64,000 bases of DNA from Pseudomonas sp. N40(2020) (GTDB taxonomy: Bacteria > Pseudomonadota > Gammaproteobacteria > Pseudomonadales > Pseudomonadaceae). Position numbers and translations under genes: made by a program. Of the stretch, positions 119-32,792 are shown piece by piece. A model generated the notes under the pieces. The model had not been told where the DNA came from and did no database searches. It saw only the letters and a list, made by a program, of their open reading frames with translations. The stretch lies in the NCBI RefSeq assembly GCF_014472415.1, contig NZ_JACSZV010000035.1:1-64000 (forward strand). Direction: 5' to 3'. How positions within the stretch are numbered: position 1 is the first letter of the stretch; each line of letters opens with the position of its first letter.

Positions 119-1336
119 ATGTCCGTTACCGCCCCATCCGCCAAATCGGCGCCAGATCACCACGCCCAGTTCATCGAGCTGCTGCAAACCAGCCTCGAGC
201 AGAACGGTTTCATCAAACTGGTGCTGGCCAAATACGTCGGTGAAGAAACGGATCTGCAGCGGGTCATCATCAAACCGGTGACGGTCAAGGCGCAGCCAAA
301 CCTGTCCTTCGTCTATCGCTACAAGACCCGCGACATCACCAAGAATCTGCCACTGGCCGAAGGCGTGGCGATGATTGCCGAGGTGTTGCCGGCCTCGTTT
401 AAAAATGCGCATTTGCTGGCCGTGACTGATGAAGCACAGCTCGAATACAGCAAAAAGGGCAAGAGTTCGCTGTTCAAGAGCAAACCCCAGCAATTGCGTG
501 AAGCGCCGTCCGCCGAGCACAACCGCGAGAAAAACCGCTTTCTGGAGTTGAGCCGACCGTTCCTCAAGGATCTGGGCGTGACCAATGCGCAACAAGAGCT
601 GATCCCGGCGATGTCGCGCAAGTGGAAGCAGATCAACAAGTTCATCGAAGTCTTCAGCCATGCCCTGACCTCGTCCCCGCTGGCGCTGGACAAGCCGGTG
701 CGGGTCGCAGATTTCGGTTCGGGCAAGGGTTATCTGACCTTCGCGATTCACGATTACCTGCGCAACACCTTGAAGGCCGAGGGTGAAGTCACCGGCGTCG
801 AATTGCGCGAAGAGATGGTCAACCTGTGCAACGCTGCGGCGGCGAAGCTGGATCATCCGGGGCTGGTGTTCAAGTGCGGTGACGTGCGCAGCGTGGCGCC
901 GAGCGAGCTGGACGTGATGATCGCCCTGCATGCCTGCGACATCGCCACCGATTACGCGATCCACACCGGCATTCGTTCGGGCGCGTCGATCATCATGTGC
1001 TCGCCGTGCTGCCACAAACAGATCCGCCTGCAAATCCAGAGCCCGGCGCTGCTCAAGCCGATGCTGCAATACGGTCTGCACCTCGGCCAGCAGGCGGAAA
1101 TGGTCACCGACAGCTTGCGTGCGCTGTTCCTCGAGGCCTGTGGTTACGAGACCAAGGTGTTCGAGTTCATTTCACTGGACCACACCAACAAGAACAAGAT
1201 GATTCTGGCGGTGAAACGCGCCGAGCCGGTAGACCCGGCTCAGCTGTTGGTGAAGATTGAGGAATTGAAGGCGTTCTACAACATCAGCGAGCACTGTCTG
1301 GAAACCTTGCTGCGCGCCGATGGTTATCTGAGCTGA
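119..1336 (+). CDS. Class I SAM-dependent methyltransferase (Methyltransf_32-like)
   Basis: A 405-residue cytoplasmic protein. A glycine-rich SAM-binding motif I (VADFGSGKGYLTFA) lies near residue 196, after an N-terminal region of about 190 residues with no recognised fold. A CSPCCHK motif near residue 293 resembles the Cys-Cys-His cluster of the Methyltransf_32 family (eukaryotic GSTCD/METTL25 relatives). The substrate is unknown; an RNA or protein target is inference. I chose the ATG at 119; a TTG two codons upstream is possible, and neither has a strong Shine-Dalgarno sequence. The gene converges on the DMT transporter with only 3 bases between their stop codons. Confidence 0.75.
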   Translation: MSVTAPSAKSAPDHHAQFIELLQTSLEQNGFIKLVLAKYVGEETDLQRVIIKPVTVKAQPNLSFVYRYKTRDITKNLPLAEGVAMIAEVLPASFKNAHLLAVTDEAQLEYSKKGKSSLFKSKPQQLREAPSAEHNREKNRFLELSRPFLKDLGVTNAQQELIPAMSRKWKQINKFIEVFSHALTSSPLALDKPVRVADFGSGKGYLTFAIHDYLRNTLKAEGEVTGVELREEMVNLCNAAAAKLDHPGLVFKCGDVRSVAPSELDVMIALHACDIATDYAIHTGIRSGASIIMCSPCCHKQIRLQIQSPALLKPMLQYGLHLGQQAEMVTDSLRALFLEACGYETKVFEFISLDHTNKNKMILAVKRAEPVDPAQLLVKIEELKAFYNISEHCLETLLRADGYLS

Positions 1337-1339
1337 ATC

Positions 1340-2230
1340 TCACGCAGTGGCAGCCTTTGCTGGCTGCACGGTGGTCTTGCGACCGAGCATGACGGTCGCA
1401 ATCACCCCGCAAGCAAACACCCAGGTGATCGGCTCCACATGTTCCCCAAAGAACAGCGCCGAAAACGCGATGGTGAAGAAGATCTGCAGCAACTGGATCT
1501 GACTGACCCGGGCAATGCCACCCATGGCCAGCCCGGCGTACCAGGCGAAGAAGCCGAGAAACTGCGAAAACAGCGCGACGTAGCCGAACGCCCACCAGGC
1601 CTTGGCCGACACCGTGCCCTGATGTTGCAGCGCCAGGTACAACACCGGGCCGATCAATAGCGGTGTCGACAGCACCAGCGCCCAGCAGATCACCTGCCAG
1701 CCGCCCATCTCCTTGGCCAACCGGCCGCCCTCGGCGTAGCCCAGACCTCCCACGGCAATCGCGCCGAGCATCAATAAATCCCCGGCCTGAATGCTGCCGG
1801 CCCCGGTAAACAACGCATAACCAAGCACCAGCGCACTGCCCAGCGCGGCGCAGGCCCAGAAGGCTTTTGACGGCCGTTCGTGGGACAACCAAGCGGCATA
1901 AAGCGCCACGCACAACGGCTGCAATCCGTTGACCAGTGCACCGTGGGACGCCGGCAACGTCTGCATGGCCCAGGCCGACAACACCGGGAAACCGAGAATC
2001 ACCCCGGCGATCACCATGCTAAGGCCTTTGACCTGTGCCCACGTCGGCCACTTCTCCCGTCGCCATAACAACAGTAACGCTGCCGGAATCGCCGCGAACA
2101 AGGCGCGGCCCAAGCCGTTGAGCAAGGGATGCAGTTCCTGCACGACGATGCGGGTGAAGGGCAGGGTAAGGCTGAAAATCACAACCCCGAGCAGGCCGAG
2201 GGCCATGCCGGTGTTTTCGCGCGAAGACAT
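1340..2230 (-). CDS. EamA/DMT-family inner-membrane exporter
   Basis: A 296-residue, very hydrophobic protein with about ten predicted membrane segments in two homologous halves, the usual drug/metabolite transporter size and layout. EamA-type features include GLGRALFAAIPAALLLL early and VSQIQLLQIFFTIAFSALFFGE in the second half (split here only to show the region, residues about 230-260). DMT proteins export amino acids, purines or drugs; the substrate cannot be read from sequence. It stands alone and is followed on its upstream side by a REP pair at 2341-2407. Confidence 0.8.
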   Translation of the reverse strand: MSSRENTGMALGLLGVVIFSLTLPFTRIVVQELHPLLNGLGRALFAAIPAALLLLWRREKWPTWAQVKGLSMVIAGVILGFPVLSAWAMQTLPASHGALVNGLQPLCVALYAAWLSHERPSKAFWACAALGSALVLGYALFTGAGSIQAGDLLMLGAIAVGGLGYAEGGRLAKEMGGWQVICWALVLSTPLLIGPVLYLALQHQGTVSAKAWWAFGYVALFSQFLGFFAWYAGLAMGGIARVSQIQLLQIFFTIAFSALFFGEHVEPITWVFACGVIATVMLGRKTTVQPAKAATA

Positions 2231-2340
2231 GAGGTTGACCAGAATTGAAGGTGGCAGGGGATTGCCTTCATCAAGCCATAAACCGGGCCATTCGGGCTGG
2301 TACAGCCAGGCGCAGAGTTAGGCGTACAGTTTGCGGGCGC

Positions 2341-2407
2341 CATCGCTAGCAGGCTCACTCCTGCAGGGGAACGCATTTCAACCGTAGGAGTGAGCCTGCT
2401 CGCGATG
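2341..2407. repeat. REP inverted-repeat pair
   Basis: Two facing arms (GCTAGCAGGCTCACTCCTGC and GTAGGAGTGAGCCTGCTCGC) separated by about 22 bases. It is the same family as the elements at 3885, 25466, 27942 and 63363, in an intergenic space between divergent genes. Confidence 0.85.
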
Positions 2408-2499
2408 AACGATAACTCGGTAGTACCCGGTTATTACCTGCCGGCCCGGAATGGGTCTACCTTGAACACTCCCAGGCAATTTCCAGAGGAGTCCTCCCC

Positions 2500-3081
2500 A
2501 TGGCCGCGAAAAAAATCCTGATGCTGGTCGGCGATTACGTCGAAGACTACGAAGTGATGGTGCCGTTCCAGGCCCTGCAAATGGTCGGCCACACCGTCCA
2601 CGCCGTATGCCCGGACAAGGCCGCCGGCAAAACCGTGCGCACCGCCATCCACGACTTTGAAGGCGACCAGACCTACAGCGAAAAACCGGGTCACCTGTTT
2701 GCCCTCAATTTTGATTTCGCCAAGGTCCGCGAGGCGGATTACGACGCACTGGTAATTCCGGGTGGTCGTGCGCCGGAATACCTTCGACTGAATGAAAAAG
2801 TCCTCGAACTGGTACGCGCCTTCGACAAGGCTGGCAAGCCGATCGCAGCGGTGTGTCACGGCGCGCAGTTGCTGGCGGCGGCGGGGGTTCTCGAAGGGCG
2901 CGAATGCAGCGCCTACCCGGCCTGCGCGCCGGAAGTCCGACTGGCGGGCGGCACGTACATCGACATTCCCGTGACCGACGGCCACGTTCAAGGCAATCTG
3001 GTCACCGCCCCGGCATGGCCGGCGCATCCGAACTGGCTGGCCGGTTTCCTCGGTTTGCTCGGCACCAAAATCACCCTGTAA
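2500..3081 (+). CDS. DJ-1/PfpI family protein
   Basis: A 193-residue cytoplasmic protein with the DJ-1/PfpI glutamine-amidotransferase-like fold. The nucleophile elbow is VCHGAQLL, with Cys119 followed by His120, and an acidic residue near Glu17 (VEDYEV) would complete the usual site. Family members are stress chaperones, glyoxalases/deglycases or peptidases; which applies here is open. A strong GAGGAG ribosome site lies before the ATG. The next gene starts 13 bases after the stop, so the two are probably co-transcribed. Confidence 0.85.
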
Positions 3082-3094
3082 CGAGGATTCGCCC

Positions 3095-3400
3095 ATGTGC
3101 GAGCTCTACGTCAAGGCTGACCCGATTCTCTACGAATCGCGCTCGCGTTCGCTGCGCATCTGCGGGGTGGTGACGACGTTGCGCCTGGAAAACCAGTTTT
3201 GGGACATCCTCAGCGAAATCGCCGAGGTCGATGGCATGACCACCAATCAACTGATCGCCAAGCTGTATGAAGAGGTGATGGACTATCGCGGGGAGGTGGT
3301 GAACTTTGCCTCGTTCCTGCGGGTGAGTTGTACGCGGTATCTGTCGCAACGGCGTAGTGCTGCGCCGGAGTTGTCGGTGGTGCGGGCGGTGGTGAAATAG
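3095..3400 (+). CDS. Ribbon-helix-helix domain protein (RHH_4-like)
   Basis: A 101-residue protein. Residues about 18-75 (RSLRICGVVTTLRLENQFW onward, with MTTNQLIAKLYEEV) fit the RHH_4 family: a short beta strand carrying Arg/Thr followed by two helices. Such proteins usually bind DNA as dimers. It begins 13 bases after the DJ-1 gene and may regulate it or be an accessory. A near-perfect palindrome after its stop (3416-3443) could end transcription. Confidence 0.7.
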   Translation: MCELYVKADPILYESRSRSLRICGVVTTLRLENQFWDILSEIAEVDGMTTNQLIAKLYEEVMDYRGEVVNFASFLRVSCTRYLSQRRSAAPELSVVRAVVK

Positions 3401-3415
3401 CCCTGACCGAGTTGA

Positions 3416-3443
3416 CCCCATCGCGGGCTTGCCCGCGATGGGG
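3416..3443. repeat. Palindromic REP half with possible terminator role
   Basis: CCCCATCGCGGGC, a TT spacer and the exact reverse complement give a 13-bp stem immediately after the RHH gene. There is no T-run, so a role in termination or mRNA 3' protection is inferred. Confidence 0.6.
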
Positions 3444-3521
3444 GCGGTATAGGCGACAGATGTTCCGGACTGGTCTTTACTTCGACGCGCGAAACTTCTT
3501 AATCGCCAAGGAGAAACGAGC

Positions 3522-3866
3522 ATGTCCGGATGGTACGAAGTCAGTAAAAGCAGCAACGGCCAGTTCAGATTTGTGCTGAAAGCGGCCAACGCCGAAACCA
3601 TTCTCACCAGTGAGCTCTACACCACTCGCGCGGCAGCCGACGGCGGCATCGCCTCGGTGCAGACCAACAGCCCGCTGGATGAGCGTTACGAGAAGAAAAC
3701 CACCAAGGACGGTCATCCGTACTTCAACCTCAAAGCCGCCAATCACCAGATCATCGGTAGCAGCGAGTCTTACTCCTCCGATGCCGCGTGCGACAAAGGC
3801 ATTGCCAGCGTGAAAGCCAACGGGTCGACCAAAACCATCAAGGACAAGACCCTGCCGGTGCTCTAG
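3522..3866 (+). CDS. YegP-family protein with two DUF1508 repeats
   Basis: A 114-residue protein made of two tandem DUF1508 units. The first covers about residues 2-50 (WYEVSKSSNGQFRFVLKAAN) and the second about 55-100 (YFNLKAANHQIIGSSESYSS). Each has the FxLKAxN ... I/S-E-x-Y pattern. The family is widespread but has no established biochemical role. AAGGAGAAACGAGC precedes the ATG. A single-repeat relative is at 59192-59383. Confidence 0.85.
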   Translation: MSGWYEVSKSSNGQFRFVLKAANAETILTSELYTTRAAADGGIASVQTNSPLDERYEKKTTKDGHPYFNLKAANHQIIGSSESYSSDAACDKGIASVKANGSTKTIKDKTLPVL

Positions 3867-3884
3867 AGAACACTGAAAATCAAA

Positions 3885-3976
3885 CTGTAGGAGTGAGCCT
3901 GCTCGCGATGAAGCCGTCAGATTCAATAGAGATGTTGACTGATCGACCGCTATCGCGAGCAGGCTCACTCCCACAT
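3885..3976. repeat. REP inverted-repeat pair
   Basis: Facing arms CTGTAGGAGTGAGCCTGCTC and GAGCAGGCTCACTCCCACA around a spacer of about 38 bases. It sits between the convergent yegP-like and DapA-like genes and may also block read-through. Confidence 0.85.
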
Positions 3977-3999
3977 TGGTATTCGTGTTTTCAGGAAGA

Positions 4000-4881
4000 T
4001 CAGCGCAGGGTTTTCAGGATCGCTTGTAGCTGACCGCGCCCGGTTTCACTCAGCGGAAACACCGGCAACCGCGGCTCCCCAACCTCAAGCCCCGTCTCTC
4101 GCAACCCGGCCTTGATCGTCGCCGGCAAACCACCCTTGAGGATGAAATCCAGCAACGGCAACTGGCGGTAGAACAGCTCCCGCGCCTTTTTCAGATCACC
4201 GGCAAGTGAAGCCGCGTACAGATCCAGATTCAGCTGCGGGATCAAGTTCGGCGCCGCCGTGCACCAGCCTTTCGCCCCAGCGGCAAATGCTTCCAGTGCC
4301 AGCGGATTGCAGCCGTTGTAGAACGGCACCTGACCTTCGCCGAGCAATTGCAGTTTGTGCATACGCTGGATGTCGCCGGTGCTCTCCTTGACCATGGTCA
4401 CGTTTTCCACCGCGCCGACGATGCGCAGAATCAGGTCGACTGACATGTCGGTGCCGCTGGTGGCCGGGTTGTTGTAGAGCATGATCGGCACGCCGATGCT
4501 GTCACCGATGGCGCGGTAATGGGCGAGGATTTCCGCTTCGCTGAGCTTCCAGTAAGACGCCGGCAGCACCATCACCACATCCGCGCCGTGAGCTTCGGCA
4601 AAACGCGCGCGACGCACGGCTTTGGCGGTGGTCAGGTCGGATACGCTGACGATGGTGGGCACGCGTCTGGCCACATGCTTGATGCTGAATTCGGCAACCT
4701 GATCCCACTCGGAGTCGCTCAGGTACGCGCCTTCGCCGGTACTGCCCAATGGCGCGATGGCGTGGACGCCGCTGTCGATCATTCGATCAATCGATTGGCC
4801 CAGCGCGGGCAGATCCAGCCCTTCGCCGTTGGCGCCGAACGGGGTGATGGTGTAGCCGATGATGCCGTGAATGTTGGACAT
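4000..4881 (-). CDS. DapA/NanA-superfamily aldolase or lyase
   Basis: A 293-residue TIM-barrel enzyme of the dihydrodipicolinate synthase / N-acetylneuraminate lyase superfamily. The Schiff-base lysine is about Lys165 in MVKESTGD, the substrate-loop tyrosine is in LYNNPATSG, and PLGSTGEGAYLS forms the GTGE-like loop. A bona fide dapA is at 54961, so this paralogue is probably catabolic. The ATG at 4881 has GGAGA seven bases before it. It follows the class II aldolase gene by 23 bases in one operon facing the XRE-cupin regulator. The substrate is unknown. Confidence 0.8.
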   Translation of the reverse strand: MSNIHGIIGYTITPFGANGEGLDLPALGQSIDRMIDSGVHAIAPLGSTGEGAYLSDSEWDQVAEFSIKHVARRVPTIVSVSDLTTAKAVRRARFAEAHGADVVMVLPASYWKLSEAEILAHYRAIGDSIGVPIMLYNNPATSGTDMSVDLILRIVGAVENVTMVKESTGDIQRMHKLQLLGEGQVPFYNGCNPLALEAFAAGAKGWCTAAPNLIPQLNLDLYAASLAGDLKKARELFYRQLPLLDFILKGGLPATIKAGLRETGLEVGEPRLPVFPLSETGRGQLQAILKTLR

Positions 4882-4904
4882 GGGAGTGTCTCCGTAAAAA
4901 GGTT

Positions 4905-5687
4905 TCAGTTCAGGCAATCGGCGTGTTGGCGCAGGTTCTGCCGAGCGTAATAGTTGAAAGCGGCGGCGTGGCGTTTTGGCTTGGACACCCAGTCATGCGC
5001 CTCGCGGCCCAGCGCCGGAATGATCGGCTTGATTGTGCCGGCCGCCATCGCCAACAGTTGCAGCCTGGCCGCGCGTTCGATCAATTGGGCGATGACGCAC
5101 GCCTCTTCAATTGTGCTGCCGGTGGACAACTGACCGTGGTGCGAAAGCAGAATCGCCCGTTTGTCGCCCAGCGCGCCGGCAATCAGTTCGCCTTCTTCAT
5201 TGCCCACCGGAACCCCCGGCCAGCCTTCGAGAAACGCGCAGTCGTCATACAGCGGGCACAGGTCCATGTGGGAAATCTCCAGCGGCACCTCCAGCATCGA
5301 CAGCGCGGCAATGTGCGTCGGGTGGGTGTGGATGATGCAGTTCACGTCCGGTCGGGCGCGGTATACCCAGCTGTGGAAACGGTTGGCCGGGTTGGCCATG
5401 CCGTGACCTTCGAGCACTTCCAGATCCTCGTTGACCAGCAGCAGATTGCTCGCGGTGATTTCATCGAAACCCAGGCCCAGTTGCTGAGTGTAATAGGTGC
5501 CCGGCTGCGGGCCACGGGCAGTAATTTGCCCGGCCAGACCAGAGTCATGACCACTCTCGAACAGGATTCGGCAAGTCAGGGCCAGCTTTTGCCGGTCTGT
5601 CCACGTATTATCCGCCAGGGTGTTTTGCATCTGGGTCAGCGCTTGCCTGACCAGTTGCTCTTTGGGTAGTGCTAATGTCTTGGCCAT
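4905..5687 (-). CDS. Class II aldolase/adducin family protein
   Basis: A 260-residue zinc-dependent aldolase/epimerase-fold protein. Metal-ligand histidines are visible in IIHTHPTHIAAL, and a further one in LSHHGQLSTG, as in L-fuculose-phosphate aldolase and L-ribulose-phosphate epimerase. The N-terminal stretch (TDRQKLALTCRILFESGHDS) and AGQITAR are typical of the family. I start it at the ATG at 5687, with AAAGGA upstream; longer readings would include promoter DNA. First gene of a two-gene operon with the DapA-like lyase, which suggests cleavage of a hydroxy-acid or sugar acid, but the substrate cannot be named. Confidence 0.8.
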   Translation of the reverse strand: MAKTLALPKEQLVRQALTQMQNTLADNTWTDRQKLALTCRILFESGHDSGLAGQITARGPQPGTYYTQQLGLGFDEITASNLLLVNEDLEVLEGHGMANPANRFHSWVYRARPDVNCIIHTHPTHIAALSMLEVPLEISHMDLCPLYDDCAFLEGWPGVPVGNEEGELIAGALGDKRAILLSHHGQLSTGSTIEEACVIAQLIERAARLQLLAMAAGTIKPIIPALGREAHDWVSKPKRHAAAFNYYARQNLRQHADCLN

Positions 5688-14958: not shown

Positions 14959-15392
14959 GGGGAAGTGCTCTTTTGAGTTCGTTCGTCAGCGGCACAGCGG
15001 CCGCGATTGGGATTCCCTCGAAAGTGATGACGCGTATTCGTCGATGGCCGCGCAGGGGGAGGGTGGTGGTTGATGGGGAGATGCTAGCGGGTCGGTTGGA
15101 AAGTGAGAACCGGGGGAGTGTTGTTGATCTGTAATGTCGGACGATTCGCCGGGTTTTCTGGATGTGTAAACGCTTTCTGCTGGCTGCGTTTAAAGGCGTT
15201 CGATGTTACGTCCTGAAGCCTACAAATCCTTGCGCCGTTGCCTACCGCTACGCCAGAATCCGCCGGCTTGTGCGCCTTGGGGGCGGTCGGTAACTTGGTT
15301 CGCGTCACTGATTTCCAGTGAACGGGTTTAGCAGCCAGGCGTTTCCACCACATCGTACGAGCGTCATTCAGCCAGTTTTTGCTGTGCTTAAT
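14959..15392. other. 434-base gap without a convincing gene
   Basis: No coding frame here has a ribosome site and a recognisable protein. The part from about 15220 leads directly into the structured RNA at 15393-15475 and may be its promoter and leader. A small hairpin (CACTG ... CAGTG, near 15305-15319) is visible. Confidence 0.4.
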
Positions 15393-15475
15393 GGTGGCTG
15401 TGCGCATGGCACCTTCGGGTGCGCCGGGATTTTGGTGGATTCGCCCGGTCTGCTAACTTGCGTACAGCCGCCACC
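15393..15475 (+). ncRNA. Candidate three-way-junction structured RNA upstream of DUF6124 gene
   Basis: An outer stem pairs GGTGGCTGTGCGCA (15393-15406) with TGCGTACAGCCGCCACC (15459-15475): 14 pairs including one G-U, with a 3-base bulge. Inside lie two hairpins: GCACC-TTCG-GGTGC (15409-15422), a stable C(UUCG)G tetraloop, and CCGGG/CCCGG (15424-15428 with 15444-15448). It ends 48 bases before the DUF6124 start codon. A cis-regulatory leader or a small RNA are both possible. Strand is assigned from the UUCG loop and the downstream gene. Confidence 0.55.
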
Positions 15476-15523
15476 CTTTCGTGTAGCAGCGGGATGGTTG
15501 TGGCCCTATTCGGAATACACCAT

Positions 15524-15886
15524 ATGTTCAAAGTTACGCCAAACCCGCCAGACACCGATCCGGCATCCCCCTACGAATCGCCCGGTTCGAAGAAATTCCA
15601 CGAAGCCGCTGAACGCGCCCTCGACCACTACCTCAGCCCCGCCGCCCAAATCATGGGCTCAACCAACGAACCCGAACCGATGTTCCTCGCCAACCCGAAG
15701 TACGACACCGAGTCCCTGCTGGCCAACGCCAGCGAAACCCTCGGCTCGGCCACCACCCTGCTCAACAACTTTGCCGCGATGCTCGACACCTCACACCGCA
15801 AGACCGCGCTTGGCATTGCGCAGATTGTGATGTTGAGTGAGTTGGCGGTGAATAAGGCGCTGGATAACGTGGTGCCGGCGGCTTAA
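15524..15886 (+). CDS. DUF6124 family small protein
   Basis: A 120-residue protein of the DUF6124 type, common in Pseudomonas. It has a Pro-rich N-terminus (TPNPPDTDPASPYES), a central FHEAAERALDHYL helix, and ANASETLGSATTLLNNFAAM leading into a final helix. No function is established and there is no signal peptide. The ATG at 15524 is chosen because conserved protein sequence begins there. The structured leader at 15393-15475 suggests post-transcriptional control. Confidence 0.75.
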   Translation: MFKVTPNPPDTDPASPYESPGSKKFHEAAERALDHYLSPAAQIMGSTNEPEPMFLANPKYDTESLLANASETLGSATTLLNNFAAMLDTSHRKTALGIAQIVMLSELAVNKALDNVVPAA

Positions 15887-15957: not shown

Positions 15958-17217
15958 TCAAACAAGTAGCGCGATGTTTTGATCGATTCGATGTTGAATG
16001 GTGCGAAGGGTTTCTCGGGTGATCACCCCCGGATACGAGCTTTCGGCGATGGCTGAAAATCGGCTTGCCACCTCGCAGAATCGGTCAATGATGTCTGCGG
16101 CAGTTGCCGCTGCCACCTCAGCTTCCACTGCAAGGTTGAGCAGGTTTTCTCGTCCAATTTCCAAAGCTTCGCCCATCACGTCCATCTGATGATAACCACC
16201 GGGCCCCTCGCAGAAGGTCACGTCGTAGGCGGGCGCTAATTTCCAATCTCCGCCAGGCGACATGATGTAAGCAAAGTTCTTCGGATGGTCGTCTCGGTTG
16301 TTGAACGCGACATTGAAGACGATTCGCTCAAACGCGCTCGCTTTCTCTCGGACGTGGTTGGTGCACTTTTGAGTCGCCCGCAAGAAGTTGACGTAATCCA
16401 AAGAGCCTGGGGATCTGAAATCTGCACCGGTAAAGGCTGCGAGACTTTGCATCGGCACCCGCAGATTGTTTTTTCGATCAAAGCGTTTAGTGGCGAAAGC
16501 GGCCATTCCCTCAGACAGGCTGAAATAACGAGTGTCAGGAGTCTGGATACCGCACAAGCGTAAGCATTCGGCATAGACCATTTCGATGGCACATACCTCG
16601 GGATGTTCTTGCTGCGCTGGAAACTTCACCAGCCAGGCTTCGAAATCAGGAGTGGCTGCCGTGGTAAAGGTATCGTTTTCTGGATCGCGATAGACCAGCG
16701 CTTTTGGTCGTGCCCCTTGGGGAGAGCCTCCCACCAGTAGCAGCTTCTGAAGAAGCTCTCCACCTTCACCTTTGAGCACTTCCTGCACTTCGGCCGCGAG
16801 CAGTTCGATGGGAACATGCATTTGCGGTTCCAGTGCCTCGGGTGCAACAGGTTCGAACGACATGGCGCCCATGGCATTGTTGCCAATGTAGGCCAAGCGC
16901 TCCAAAGGACCAACGCGTGCGGGGTTGAGGCCGCGACGTTTGAACAATCGGTCCATCAGCAACAGGCCCCAGCCGTCGGGCAGGGAGTCATAAACGGGTC
17001 CGGGCAGTCCCATCTGATGTGACGGGAAATCCCTGTTCAATTTGGCCCCCTGTAAAGGAAGCCTCAGGGAGGACAGCTCCAGCCCTTTTTTTTTCGCCTC
17101 GTTGCTGAACTCAAACACAATCAGCGGGCGACCGGTCAGAGCTTTCGTGGAAGCAAGCGTGCCCCACCGCCAACGTTCACCCCAGCCCTCGTAGTAGACG
17201 TCAACTTGCTCAAGCAT
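15958..17217 (-). CDS. hipA: HipA-family serine/threonine kinase toxin
   Basis: A 419-residue type II toxin kinase. HipA_N-like and HipA_C regions are present: a GGSPQGARPKALV nucleotide-binding loop near residue 163, VKFPA, the catalytic motif NNRDDHPKN near residue 309, and APAYDVTF as the metal-binding DFG equivalent. HipA of E. coli phosphorylates glutamyl-tRNA synthetase and causes persistence; other HipA proteins have other aminoacyl-tRNA synthetase targets. It overlaps the 3' end of hipB by 8 bases, with AAAGGAAAG before its ATG. All catalytic residues appear intact. Confidence 0.88.
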   Translation of the reverse strand: MLEQVDVYYEGWGERWRWGTLASTKALTGRPLIVFEFSNEAKKKGLELSSLRLPLQGAKLNRDFPSHQMGLPGPVYDSLPDGWGLLLMDRLFKRRGLNPARVGPLERLAYIGNNAMGAMSFEPVAPEALEPQMHVPIELLAAEVQEVLKGEGGELLQKLLLVGGSPQGARPKALVYRDPENDTFTTAATPDFEAWLVKFPAQQEHPEVCAIEMVYAECLRLCGIQTPDTRYFSLSEGMAAFATKRFDRKNNLRVPMQSLAAFTGADFRSPGSLDYVNFLRATQKCTNHVREKASAFERIVFNVAFNNRDDHPKNFAYIMSPGGDWKLAPAYDVTFCEGPGGYHQMDVMGEALEIGRENLLNLAVEAEVAAATAADIIDRFCEVASRFSAIAESSYPGVITRETLRTIQHRIDQNIALLV

Positions 17218-17527
17218 TGTCGGCTTTCCTTTTGATGCGATGACGCTTGGCAGTGTTTTCGTAGCGAATGAGGTCGTCCAGGGTTTCAAGTTTAGGCAAA
17301 AACAGATCTTCGAGTTCCTTGCCGCGTCCAAGAACCATGGCGACTCGCACCAGATTGTCGAAACCCACATTACGCCCGGCTTCGAGGTTTGACACCGTGT
17401 TCGTCCCGATACCGGCTCGTGCGGCTACGTCCGCCTGTGTCATCTCCAGAGCCAATCGTTCTGTGCGCAAGCGTTGGCAAATCCGTTTGACGATCTCGCT
17501 TGCGGTGCTGAGGCTTAAATCCATCAT
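17210..17527 (-). CDS. hipB: HipB-like XRE antitoxin and repressor
   Basis: A 105-residue helix-turn-helix protein (ALEMTQADVAARAGIGTNTV then SNLEAGRNVGFDNLVRVA) placed upstream of and overlapping hipA, as in hipBA operons. It should neutralise HipA and repress the operon. A C-terminal basic tail (RHRIKRKADNA) is present. Two adjacent ATG codons (17527 and 17524) can serve as start. A 7-bp inverted repeat lies 50 bases upstream. Confidence 0.85.
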   Translation of the reverse strand: MMDLSLSTASEIVKRICQRLRTERLALEMTQADVAARAGIGTNTVSNLEAGRNVGFDNLVRVAMVLGRGKELEDLFLPKLETLDDLIRYENTAKRHRIKRKADNA

Positions 17528-17577
17528 GTCGTATTTACCGTAGGCGTAAGTGCTATGACACCAGGAGTTCTGAGTTG

Positions 17578-17603
17578 ACTGACATTCAGGCTTGGTTGTC
17601 AGT
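17578..17603. promoter_or_regulatory. Candidate hipBA operator
   Basis: ACTGACA and TGTCAGT form a 7-bp inverted repeat with a 12-base spacer, upstream of hipB. HipB proteins bind such palindromes near the promoter. Binding is inferred only from symmetry and position. Confidence 0.4.
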
Positions 17604-17710
17604 GCACAATATACTGTGGCTTAAACGACAAAATCTTATTTAACTCACGTAAAAATGGAATTAGGCATGCTTGGATAGGGTAGGGTCAGCGCAGATTTAA
17701 GCGACAAAAT

Positions 17711-18118
17711 TCAACCTTGCTGCAAAACTTTCAAAGCCGCCGAAGCCAGAAATCCCGAACGACTCTTCTCTTCCGGGTGGTGCAACACGTATTCATCAAT
17801 GCGATTAAGCAAATGCCCCGGCAGGGTGATGTTGAGCTTCTGGGCTTTGCCCAAGTACTTCACGACATCAATATCCACCACTGCCCATGCACATCCAGCG
17901 TACTTCGGATTGGCCACGTTCACGCCAAGTTTGCTGGCCGCCGGGATCGGCGCACCGTCCTCAGCCAAAATCTCGAAATGCCCCTCAATGGCCTCCCGAG
18001 CCATGGCAACGGCATCATCCAGATCATCGCCCGCTGAAAAACATCCGGGAATGTCCGGCACTTCCACGCCCCAGGCGTGTTCCTCATCACCTATTGAAAT
18101 CGCAATCGGGTAGAGCAT
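17711..18118 (-). CDS. hicB: HicB-family antitoxin with C-terminal RHH domain
   Basis: A 135-residue antitoxin. The N-terminal partial RNase-H-like domain is visible (YPIAISIGDEEHAWGVEVPD then IPGCFSAGDDLDDAV and AIEGHFEILAEDG). The C-terminal part (GKAQKLNITLPGHLLNRIDE) is a ribbon-helix-helix DNA-binding domain, so this HicB can also act as the autorepressor. It lies 36 bases after hicA in the usual toxin-first order. Confidence 0.9.
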   Translation of the reverse strand: MLYPIAISIGDEEHAWGVEVPDIPGCFSAGDDLDDAVAMAREAIEGHFEILAEDGAPIPAASKLGVNVANPKYAGCAWAVVDIDVVKYLGKAQKLNITLPGHLLNRIDEYVLHHPEEKSRSGFLASAALKVLQQG

Positions 18119-27862: not shown

Positions 27863-28032
27863 GCGGGCCGTCCCGCAGTTTTTCGAAAGGCATCCGGGCC
27901 GTCCCGGATGAAAAAAACACAGTTCAGAACACCACTGGCCCCTGTAGGAGTGAGCCTGCTCGCGATAGCGTTGGATCAGTCAAAACCAATGCGTCTGACC
28001 TACCGCTATCGCGAGCAGGCTCACTCCTACAG
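27863..28032. repeat. Twin hairpins and REP pair inside the operon
   Basis: GCGGGCCGTCCCGC (27863-27876) and CATCCGGG-CCGT-CCCGGATG (27891-27910) are two short hairpins sharing GGGCCGTCCC. They are followed by a full REP pair at 27942-28032. Together they fill the 279 bases between the DUF1989 gene and the carboxylase, where they could tune expression of the downstream genes. Confidence 0.75.
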
Positions 28033-32251: not shown

Positions 32252-32364
32252 GGCACCGCGAACGGTGGCTTGTCTCCCGGGCTTTTGTCCCGCCGTGTAA
32301 CCTCAACTGGAGGTCGCCAACTCTCGGACCAGCCACTCGCGATTGCGAGCCGGAACCCTAGTCA
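32252..32364 (-). ncRNA. Guanidine-I (ykkC) riboswitch
   Basis: Read on the minus strand, all conserved blocks occur in order: CTAGGGTTCCG (32361-32351), a variable hairpin, CTGGTCCGAGAG, a CCTC/GAGG hairpin, then ACACGGCGGGACAAAAGCC and CGGGAGA ending near 32272. A CACCG-TTCG-CGGTG hairpin follows (32252-32269). The position directly before the transporter gene fits a guanidine-induced leader. The class recognises guanidinium and normally turns genes on. Confidence 0.95.
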
Positions 32365-32792
32365 GCCATTGCAAATTGTGGTGCCGCGAACCTGTGATGA
32401 CTCCTGCACGGGTTTGCTAAAGCGAGAGGCGTGCCAAGTCGCGTCGAGCCCTCTGGCACGGGCCTGCCGGTTCAATCCGGTTGTGTTTGCGAGCGAGGCG
32501 GCGCTTTGTGTTGGTGCGCGGCTGCACCGTGATGCAGCGTGTGGGCCACGGGGCCATTGTTGTCCCGGTGAGTAGGGTTATCACGGCCGCGTATATCCCG
32601 GCGGGCCCCATTAATCAGCGGGTGAATGACCGCGTTGGCGGATGAACAAGGTTTCATAAATCACTTGTTTCAACTTGTTGCAGGAACGCACCAGATTCCG
32701 AAAACGCTGTCAGATAATTCGTCAGTCACCGAATAAACGACTGACGCCTGCCAGCGTCGCTGGTGTGGCTACCCGCGGTCCAGGAGGCCGCC
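32365..32792. other. 428-base gap between riboswitch and lipoprotein gene
   Basis: No gene seen. On the minus side it should carry the promoter of the guanidine operon just before 32364; a GG-N11-GC sequence at 32369-32385 resembles a sigma54 site but has the wrong spacing. A 6-bp inverted repeat GCTGCA/TGCAGC lies near 32521-32538. Confidence 0.4.

Follow-up and report, generated by a model that had tools for sequence, protein, structure and literature searches.

What is the structured RNA that lies just 5' of a DUF6124 gene in Pseudomonas sp. N40(2020), and what might it do there? The locus is part of a 64,000-nt stretch of contig NZ_JACSZV010000035.1 (hereafter the window), and the original prediction, made from the letters of that stretch, placed at 15393-15475 a three-way junction of no recognised RNA family, offering two roles for it: a cis-regulatory leader or an independent small RNA. 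Here we identify it as a C4 antisense RNA, one of tens of copies in the genome. C4 has been studied in two phages; P7 shares the C4 arrangement with P1, and P1 and P7 are heteroimmune.

Passages of PMC5320573 describe the prototype C4 as excised from a leader and acting thereafter as an antisense RNA (Hartmann 1995 is cited there), give a GGW processing motif for C4-like RNAs and report 21 C4-like sRNAs (Group 1) in Acinetobacter baumannii, the targets of which those passages leave open while proposing phage or other bacterial transcripts. Excerpts of Weinberg 2010 (PMC2864571) list both C4 and c4-a1b1, an excerpt of PMC12197685 summarises the C4 of P1/P7, and an excerpt of PMC9630843 connects DUF6124/DUF3077 with a furfural-tolerance mutation. 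Our literature search, outside which lay subscription papers and supplements (Weinberg's included), found no paper tying C4 to DUF6124.

Identity, fold and layout of the RNA in the window

The Rfam covariance model RF01695 (C4 antisense RNA) matches the locus over its full length (model positions 1-87) with a score of 74.6 bits, the cut-off being 45 (E 1e-12 for the 64-kb scan). The original prediction had itself named an existing Rfam match as grounds for giving up its claim of an unknown family, and hence that claim fails; an unknown riboswitch or leader is ruled out by the same match. What had been delimited is the C4 RNA counted from the GG at which the annotated C4 of P1 starts, and its geometry had been read correctly, with an outer stem of 14 pairs (15393-15406 with 15459-15472) and an end at 15475, 48 nt 5' of the ATG at 15524.

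The observation of a structured RNA is confirmed: the folding energy of 15380-15490 is -54.6 kcal/mol, whereas shuffled sequences average -40.2 (z = -4.41) and none of 200 goes as low. For the matched sequence alone, ViennaRNA prefers an alternative interior (-49.4 kcal/mol) to the three-way junction (-45.8 kcal/mol) and gives both inner hairpins pair probabilities of only 0.02-0.03. Covariation had been proposed as a check of the fold, and it is found in a MAFFT alignment of 45 C4 RNAs of the host genome (two remnants of 47 excluded). Here 93.2% of the cells in the three-helix fold pair, as against 84.3% in shuffles, two-sided changes occur in 127 cells as against 31.4, and none of 500 shuffles equals the observed pairing or the observed two-sided changes. 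The UUCG hairpin has two-sided changes at 5 of 5 pairs. Support for the CCGGG/CCCGG hairpin is lower, with 82.7% of its cells paired and two-sided change at 1 of 5 pairs, in our reading partly because MAFFT shifted some rows near the variable loop. Despite the different interior of the single-sequence minimum, the comparative data support the predicted junction.

The layout of the locus (Table 1) follows that of P1, in whose record the annotation runs P1c4 promoter, a1, b1, C4, a2, b2, icd, and we name the sites accordingly, a sites first and b sites at the ribosome-binding region. The four P1 sites each fit the P1 C4 by 7-8 nt, and when 30 kb were searched with a model built from the 45 host paralogs, the P1 C4 (50.6 bits) was the sole match at E 0.01. 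The window locus and P1 c4-icd-ant are alike in fold, site order, position of b2 at the ribosome-binding region and GG 5' end, and the distance from the end of the -10 element to a1 is 32 nt in both, whereas that to C4 is 120 nt in P1 and 97 nt here. They differ in that the locked gene is DUF6124 instead of icd/ant, so by its target the locus is no P1-type c4-icd-ant immunity operon, and in that tens of copies per genome occur here, with different loops.

Table 1 Features of the C4-DUF6124 locus, in window positions
Feature	Position	Strand	Remarks
Whole functional unit, promoter to gene end	about 15268-15886		
Putative promoter	15268-15296	+	-35 TTGTGC (15268-15273), 17-nt spacer, -10 TAACTT (15291-15296); proposed from a regex match
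5' hairpin of the a1b1 region	15304-15321	+	GTCACTG...CAGTGA; predicted transcript start
a1 site	15328-15334	+	TTAGCAG, complementary to a' of C4
b1 site	15344-15350	+	TCCACCA, complementary to b' of C4
C4 antisense RNA (RF01695)	15387-15478	+	Expected processed 5' end is the GG at 15393
b' recognition loop of C4	15433-15442	+	TGGTGGATTC, in the second hairpin loop
a' recognition sequence of C4	15450-15456	+	CTGCTAA
a2 target	15484-15489	+	TAGCAG, in the leader
b2 target	15513-15522	+	GAATACACCA; beside GGAA, one base 5' of the start codon
DUF6124 gene	15524-15886	+	PF19619, E 3.7e-20; 120 aa, N-terminus M.K..PNPP

The window locus is weaker than the family as a whole. Its a2 is 6 nt long, and b2, although complementary to b' at 9 of 10 positions by inspection (predicted duplex -10.9 kcal/mol), carries a mismatch that leaves a longest exact match of 5 nt; its overlap with a Shine-Dalgarno (SD) motif is scored false. 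By duplex energy with the window C4, its own leader comes 4th and 16th of 47. The upstream region resembles c4-a1b1 (RF03163) in being a target region 5' of C4, and differs in that the window copy (15301-15342) is weak, at 14.9 bits under a cut-off of 46.7; in a scan of 40 loci, which hold 45 C4 RNAs, c4-a1b1 reaches that cut-off for only 15 of the 45. A strict sigma-70 scan found no promoter at the locus. A regex search of the 47 loci found a promoter-like TTG/TA-type pair in 27 of the 41 in which the hairpin was found, and in 26 of these 27 the pair has a 17-nt spacer and ends 3-7 nt 5' of the hairpin. From this arrangement we infer the promoter listed in Table 1 and a common transcript for a1/b1 and C4.

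On the opposite strand (15958-18118), a HipA-like gene, an HTH gene (HipB-like by position) and a HicB-like antitoxin gene adjoin the C4-DUF6124 locus, a toxin-antitoxin neighbourhood. The window also holds two guanidine riboswitches less than 5 kb apart, Guanidine-I at 32272-32372 (-) and Guanidine-II at 27863-27910 (-).

Copies in the host genome, the genus and viral contigs

C4 matches above the cut-off number 47 in the host genome, where they lie on 31 contigs, and 0 in 14 control genomes. The host genome also has 43 DUF6124 and 3 DUF3077 matches at 45 places. The original prediction had proposed looking for recurrence before such genes, and this is what we see: 40 of the 47 C4 RNAs precede a DUF6124/DUF3077 gene on the same strand, 39 of them at a C4-to-domain distance of 72-236 nt and one before a truncated remnant that overlaps its C4. 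Two more (C10_82428 and C58_12594) stand before BRO-N/anti-repressor-like genes, and the C58 protein starts with the DUF6124-type N-terminus MFKATPNPPE. Four (C60, C84, C24_83767 and C18) precede small ORFs, the first three of which have no Pfam match at E 1. The C4 at C24_38237 we treat as a remnant, which brings the remnants to 2 of 47. Conversely, 5 of the 45 DUF places lack their own C4; one (C43:11448) is the second gene of a tandem, and a search with the C4 model around the remaining four gave no match at E 1. At C41:211 and C20:18942 an a1b1-like stretch lies directly before the gene with no C4, and to us these look as though C4 had been deleted. DUF6124 genes arranged in this way (L296 and L295) lack the PNPP N-terminus. 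At locus L002, a tRNA gene (1201-1274) ends about 230 nt upstream of the C4 of a DUF3077 module.

The proteins share a start. Of 45 putatively C4-controlled ORFs, 38 begin with M.K..P[NDH]PP (37 DUF6124 plus the C58 BRO-N protein), and C84 comes close (MKTLTPDPP). This N-terminus is absent from three full-length ORFs at DUF6124 places that have no C4; of the other such genes, one is a fragment and the tandem gene C43:11448 has a similar start, MSKTPEPP; the numbers in this comparison are small and the pattern was seen after the fact. Ribosome stalling at the conserved PNPP start is conceivable and no more than that. An AlphaFold2 model of the window protein (60 sequences, mean pLDDT 73.9) combines a low-confidence N-terminal half with a helical hairpin, and Foldseek found nothing in the PDB at E 0.001 or below, so no function can be inferred from the fold. 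In annotated records the protein was found on 0 plasmids and 1 phage at E 1e-5.

Within the genus, C4 is present in 54 of 59 genomes, the host included, and over the cut-off in 53. The total is at least 1033 copies (median 17, maximum 54 per genome), with at least 10 in 37 of the 59 genomes; these counts, like the phylum-wide ones below, are lower bounds, up to 61 candidates having been scored per genome in the genus and up to 20 phylum-wide. The same 59 genomes have 722 DUF6124 and 220 DUF3077 matches. The C4 count follows the sum of both (Spearman 0.935), which may count one place twice, and DUF6124 alone (Spearman 0.886). The five genomes without C4 are also without a DUF match, and six have 1-3 C4 and no DUF match. 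In a phylum-wide draw of 200 genomes, at least 30 have C4, 23 of these 30 with 1-3 copies.

Position before the gene is conserved as well. Among the best 80 of at least 516 DUF6124 relatives at named Pseudomonas loci in genome_contigs, 78 have C4 44-56 nt before the gene; of the two misses, we read one as a C4 truncated where the contig ends and the other as a C4-like stretch shortened internally. In viral contigs, C4 is upstream in 74 of the best 80 of 123 matches, at 45-55 nt in 66 and at 523-546 nt in 8, one of which (L169) has another DUF6124-like gene in between. The six viral misses comprise two at a contig end, three with a different upstream sequence and one behind the end of another such gene. 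Viral contigs often end soon after the gene, so that some may be host flanks. At the viral-contig locus L184, Mu-like phage genes lie downstream and large cargo ORFs upstream by eye; those upstream of the module (339-5173) resemble SIR2-type and restriction-endonuclease-like cargo.

One genome, G009, shows further gene contexts: 14 of the 30 C4 loci read there are followed by small ORFs that have MKK[LI]VPDPP at their start or close to it (19 if M.K.VPDPP is allowed), and some of its C4 RNAs form arrays with no gene directly after them. Three tandem C4 RNAs lie at L246 (1389-1687) and two at L242 (1412-1588), with different loops and again no gene directly after.

Complementarity of C4 RNAs to their own leaders

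We measured complementarity as the longest exact match between a C4 RNA and a leader or upstream region, at 45 loci and for four site types, with loops cut at fixed offsets from the C4 ends and therefore with rough borders. The remnants C52_13939 and C24_38237 are excluded from the host-genome complementarity, swap, precursor-fold and orthogonality tests. At every site type the match is longer with the C4's own region than with those of other loci: 7.09 vs 4.80 nt at b2, 7.27 vs 4.74 nt at a2, 6.29 vs 4.52 nt at b1 and 7.40 vs 4.82 nt at a1 (0 of 20,000 permutations each). With the four sites summed, 39 of 45 loci match their own region better than any of the other 44. The 45 loci have 45 different b' strings and 30 types of a', and a match of at least 7 nt at both downstream sites occurs in 27 of 45 own pairs and in 1 of 1980 non-own pairs. 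The start-side site (b2) overlaps an SD-like motif in 32 of 45 loci and ends a median of 8 nt before the start.

The same excess is found in 74 deduplicated named Pseudomonas loci and in 61 deduplicated viral-contig loci (0 of 20,000 permutations at each of the four sites in both sets). Here only 18 of 74 named and 27 of 61 viral loci have their own region as the single best match, which we attribute to many of these loci being near-copies. Outside the genus, the two downstream sites at 29 loci from six genomes give 0 of 20,000 permutations each; these are the 29 of 42 matches that were over the cut-off and had a locus, and some that are out of register near contig ends are still counted. With duplex energy as the measure, none of 10,000 permutations at any site type has a mean as low as the own one, but the own region ranks best in only 4-14 of 47 loci; as this ranking is noisier, we prefer exact-match length.

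Near-identical genes provide natural swaps. In 14 pairs with protein identity of at least 0.85 and different loops, the own b2 beats the swapped one in 12, ties in 2 and is worse in none; with loci shared between pairs, these are not independent observations. Two C32 loci have identical proteins and C4 RNAs that are 95% identical, yet their b' sequences differ and each fits its own b2 by 8 nt. Lock and key change together between near-identical genes, which is hard to explain without selection for pairing.

Upstream sites also fit, and predicted folds of the precursor, taken from about 110 nt before C4 to 85 nt after it, place b' on them in 25 of 45 loci and a' in 23 of 45, the window locus included, with 10 bases of b' and 12 of a' so held. 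The downstream sites hold b' in 4 and a' in 2 of the 45 folds, and in 20 of 45 b' is not on the upstream site. Our prediction is that the uncut precursor would be inactive and the released C4 active.

Proposed mechanism, rival readings and significance

The C4 RNA is very probably an antisense lock on the DUF6124 gene. Transcription, processing and translational repression are modelled here on P1/P7 and A. baumannii. A single transcript would begin just before a1/b1 and carry, in order, a1-b1, C4, a2-b2 and DUF6124. RNase P and other host enzymes would excise C4 (about 77 nt expected), and the freed RNA would pair through a'/b' with a2/b2 of the same kind of leader, on the same or other copies of the transcript, covering the ribosome-binding region and turning DUF6124 translation off. 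The a1/b1 sites would be competing partners that hold a'/b' in the uncut precursor, such that C4 becomes active only on release. The lineage has multiplied this module and diversified its a/b sequences, such that each C4 would recognise its own leader and hardly any other. On this model both roles first offered hold in part, given that the prototype C4 is cut from a leader and then acts as an antisense RNA; as a whole, the original interpretation is partly supported.

The present system would resemble type I toxin-antitoxin systems in that the translation of a small multi-copy protein is under antisense RNA control. It differs in that the antisense RNA would share transcript and strand with its target, and the protein has 120 aa. 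To the A. baumannii Group 1 RNAs, as described in passages of PMC5320573, it is similar in the many C4-like RNAs per genome (21 there), the variable target loop and the GGW processing suggested there by reads. It differs from that description in the matching target directly downstream of each C4; unlike for the large C4-like group in those passages, the target of each C4 can be read from the sequence. The RNA family is ordinary; the system is unusual in its scale and specificity. With dozens of natural lock-and-key variants, a single genome supplies a data set on the evolution of antisense specificity and on orthogonality. DUF6124 and DUF3077, families of unassigned function, gain a likely mode of control and a link to phage immunity, and with a likely control mode in hand their function becomes testable by unlocking.

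Two readings concern the purpose of the lock. One, which we put forward tentatively and would not rely on, is that C4 has been domesticated for condition-dependent control of a host protein family, the loop diversity merely preventing cross-talk between paralogs. The 47 C4 RNAs on 31 contigs, the C4 counts that follow the DUF counts and the recurrent promoter-like element speak for such a role, whereas a range of 0 to 54 copies between species is unusual for housekeeping control and the modules occur in viral contigs too.

The other reading, which we regard as rather doubtful, is that the modules are typed selfish or addiction cassettes, DUF6124 acting on the cell or on other elements like an antirepressor or a toxin. 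DUF6124 would be made briefly on entry into a cell without a matching C4, and a resident C4 would give immunity to cassettes of the same type, the loops being immunity types comparable to those of P1/P7. This is compatible with the lock and adds a purpose to it. It would account for 45 different loops in 45 loci with almost no cross-match, near-identical proteins of different type, modules in viral contigs (that at L184 beside Mu-like phage genes), the two host C4 RNAs before BRO-N antirepressor-like genes, one with MFKATPNPPE, and the gene-less C4 arrays of G009. Against it, none of the 239 C4 loci compared offered a convincing target for the orphan C4 loops; the comparison included 86 of 87 named loci, 72 of 91 viral loci (repeats and weak rows excluded) and 34 of 48 further C4 rows, overlapping loci having shown the same C4 more than once. 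A pattern search of G009 with one site type gave 16 matches vs 2 in the reversed control; the one inspected (L253) has no related gene, and the other 15 are known as matched strings alone. The window DUF6124 protein has no PHROG and no PADLOC match, and many of the copies are perhaps just inherited duplicates. In its widest form, which we think improbable, Pseudomonas would have barcode-typed, C4-locked effector cassettes common to bacterial genomes and phages, silent where a matching C4 resides and expressed on entry elsewhere, with gene-less C4 arrays as immunity banks and DUF6124, DUF3077 and BRO-N as interchangeable effectors under one antisense lock and often one N-terminal tag.

That the hairpin is a functionless, decayed phage remnant would fit the b2 mismatch and low a1b1 score of the window locus and the two remnants among 47 copies, but is extremely unlikely in view of the strong covariation, own-leader complementarity far above chance in four sets of loci, the constant spacing to the start codon and the intact ORF.
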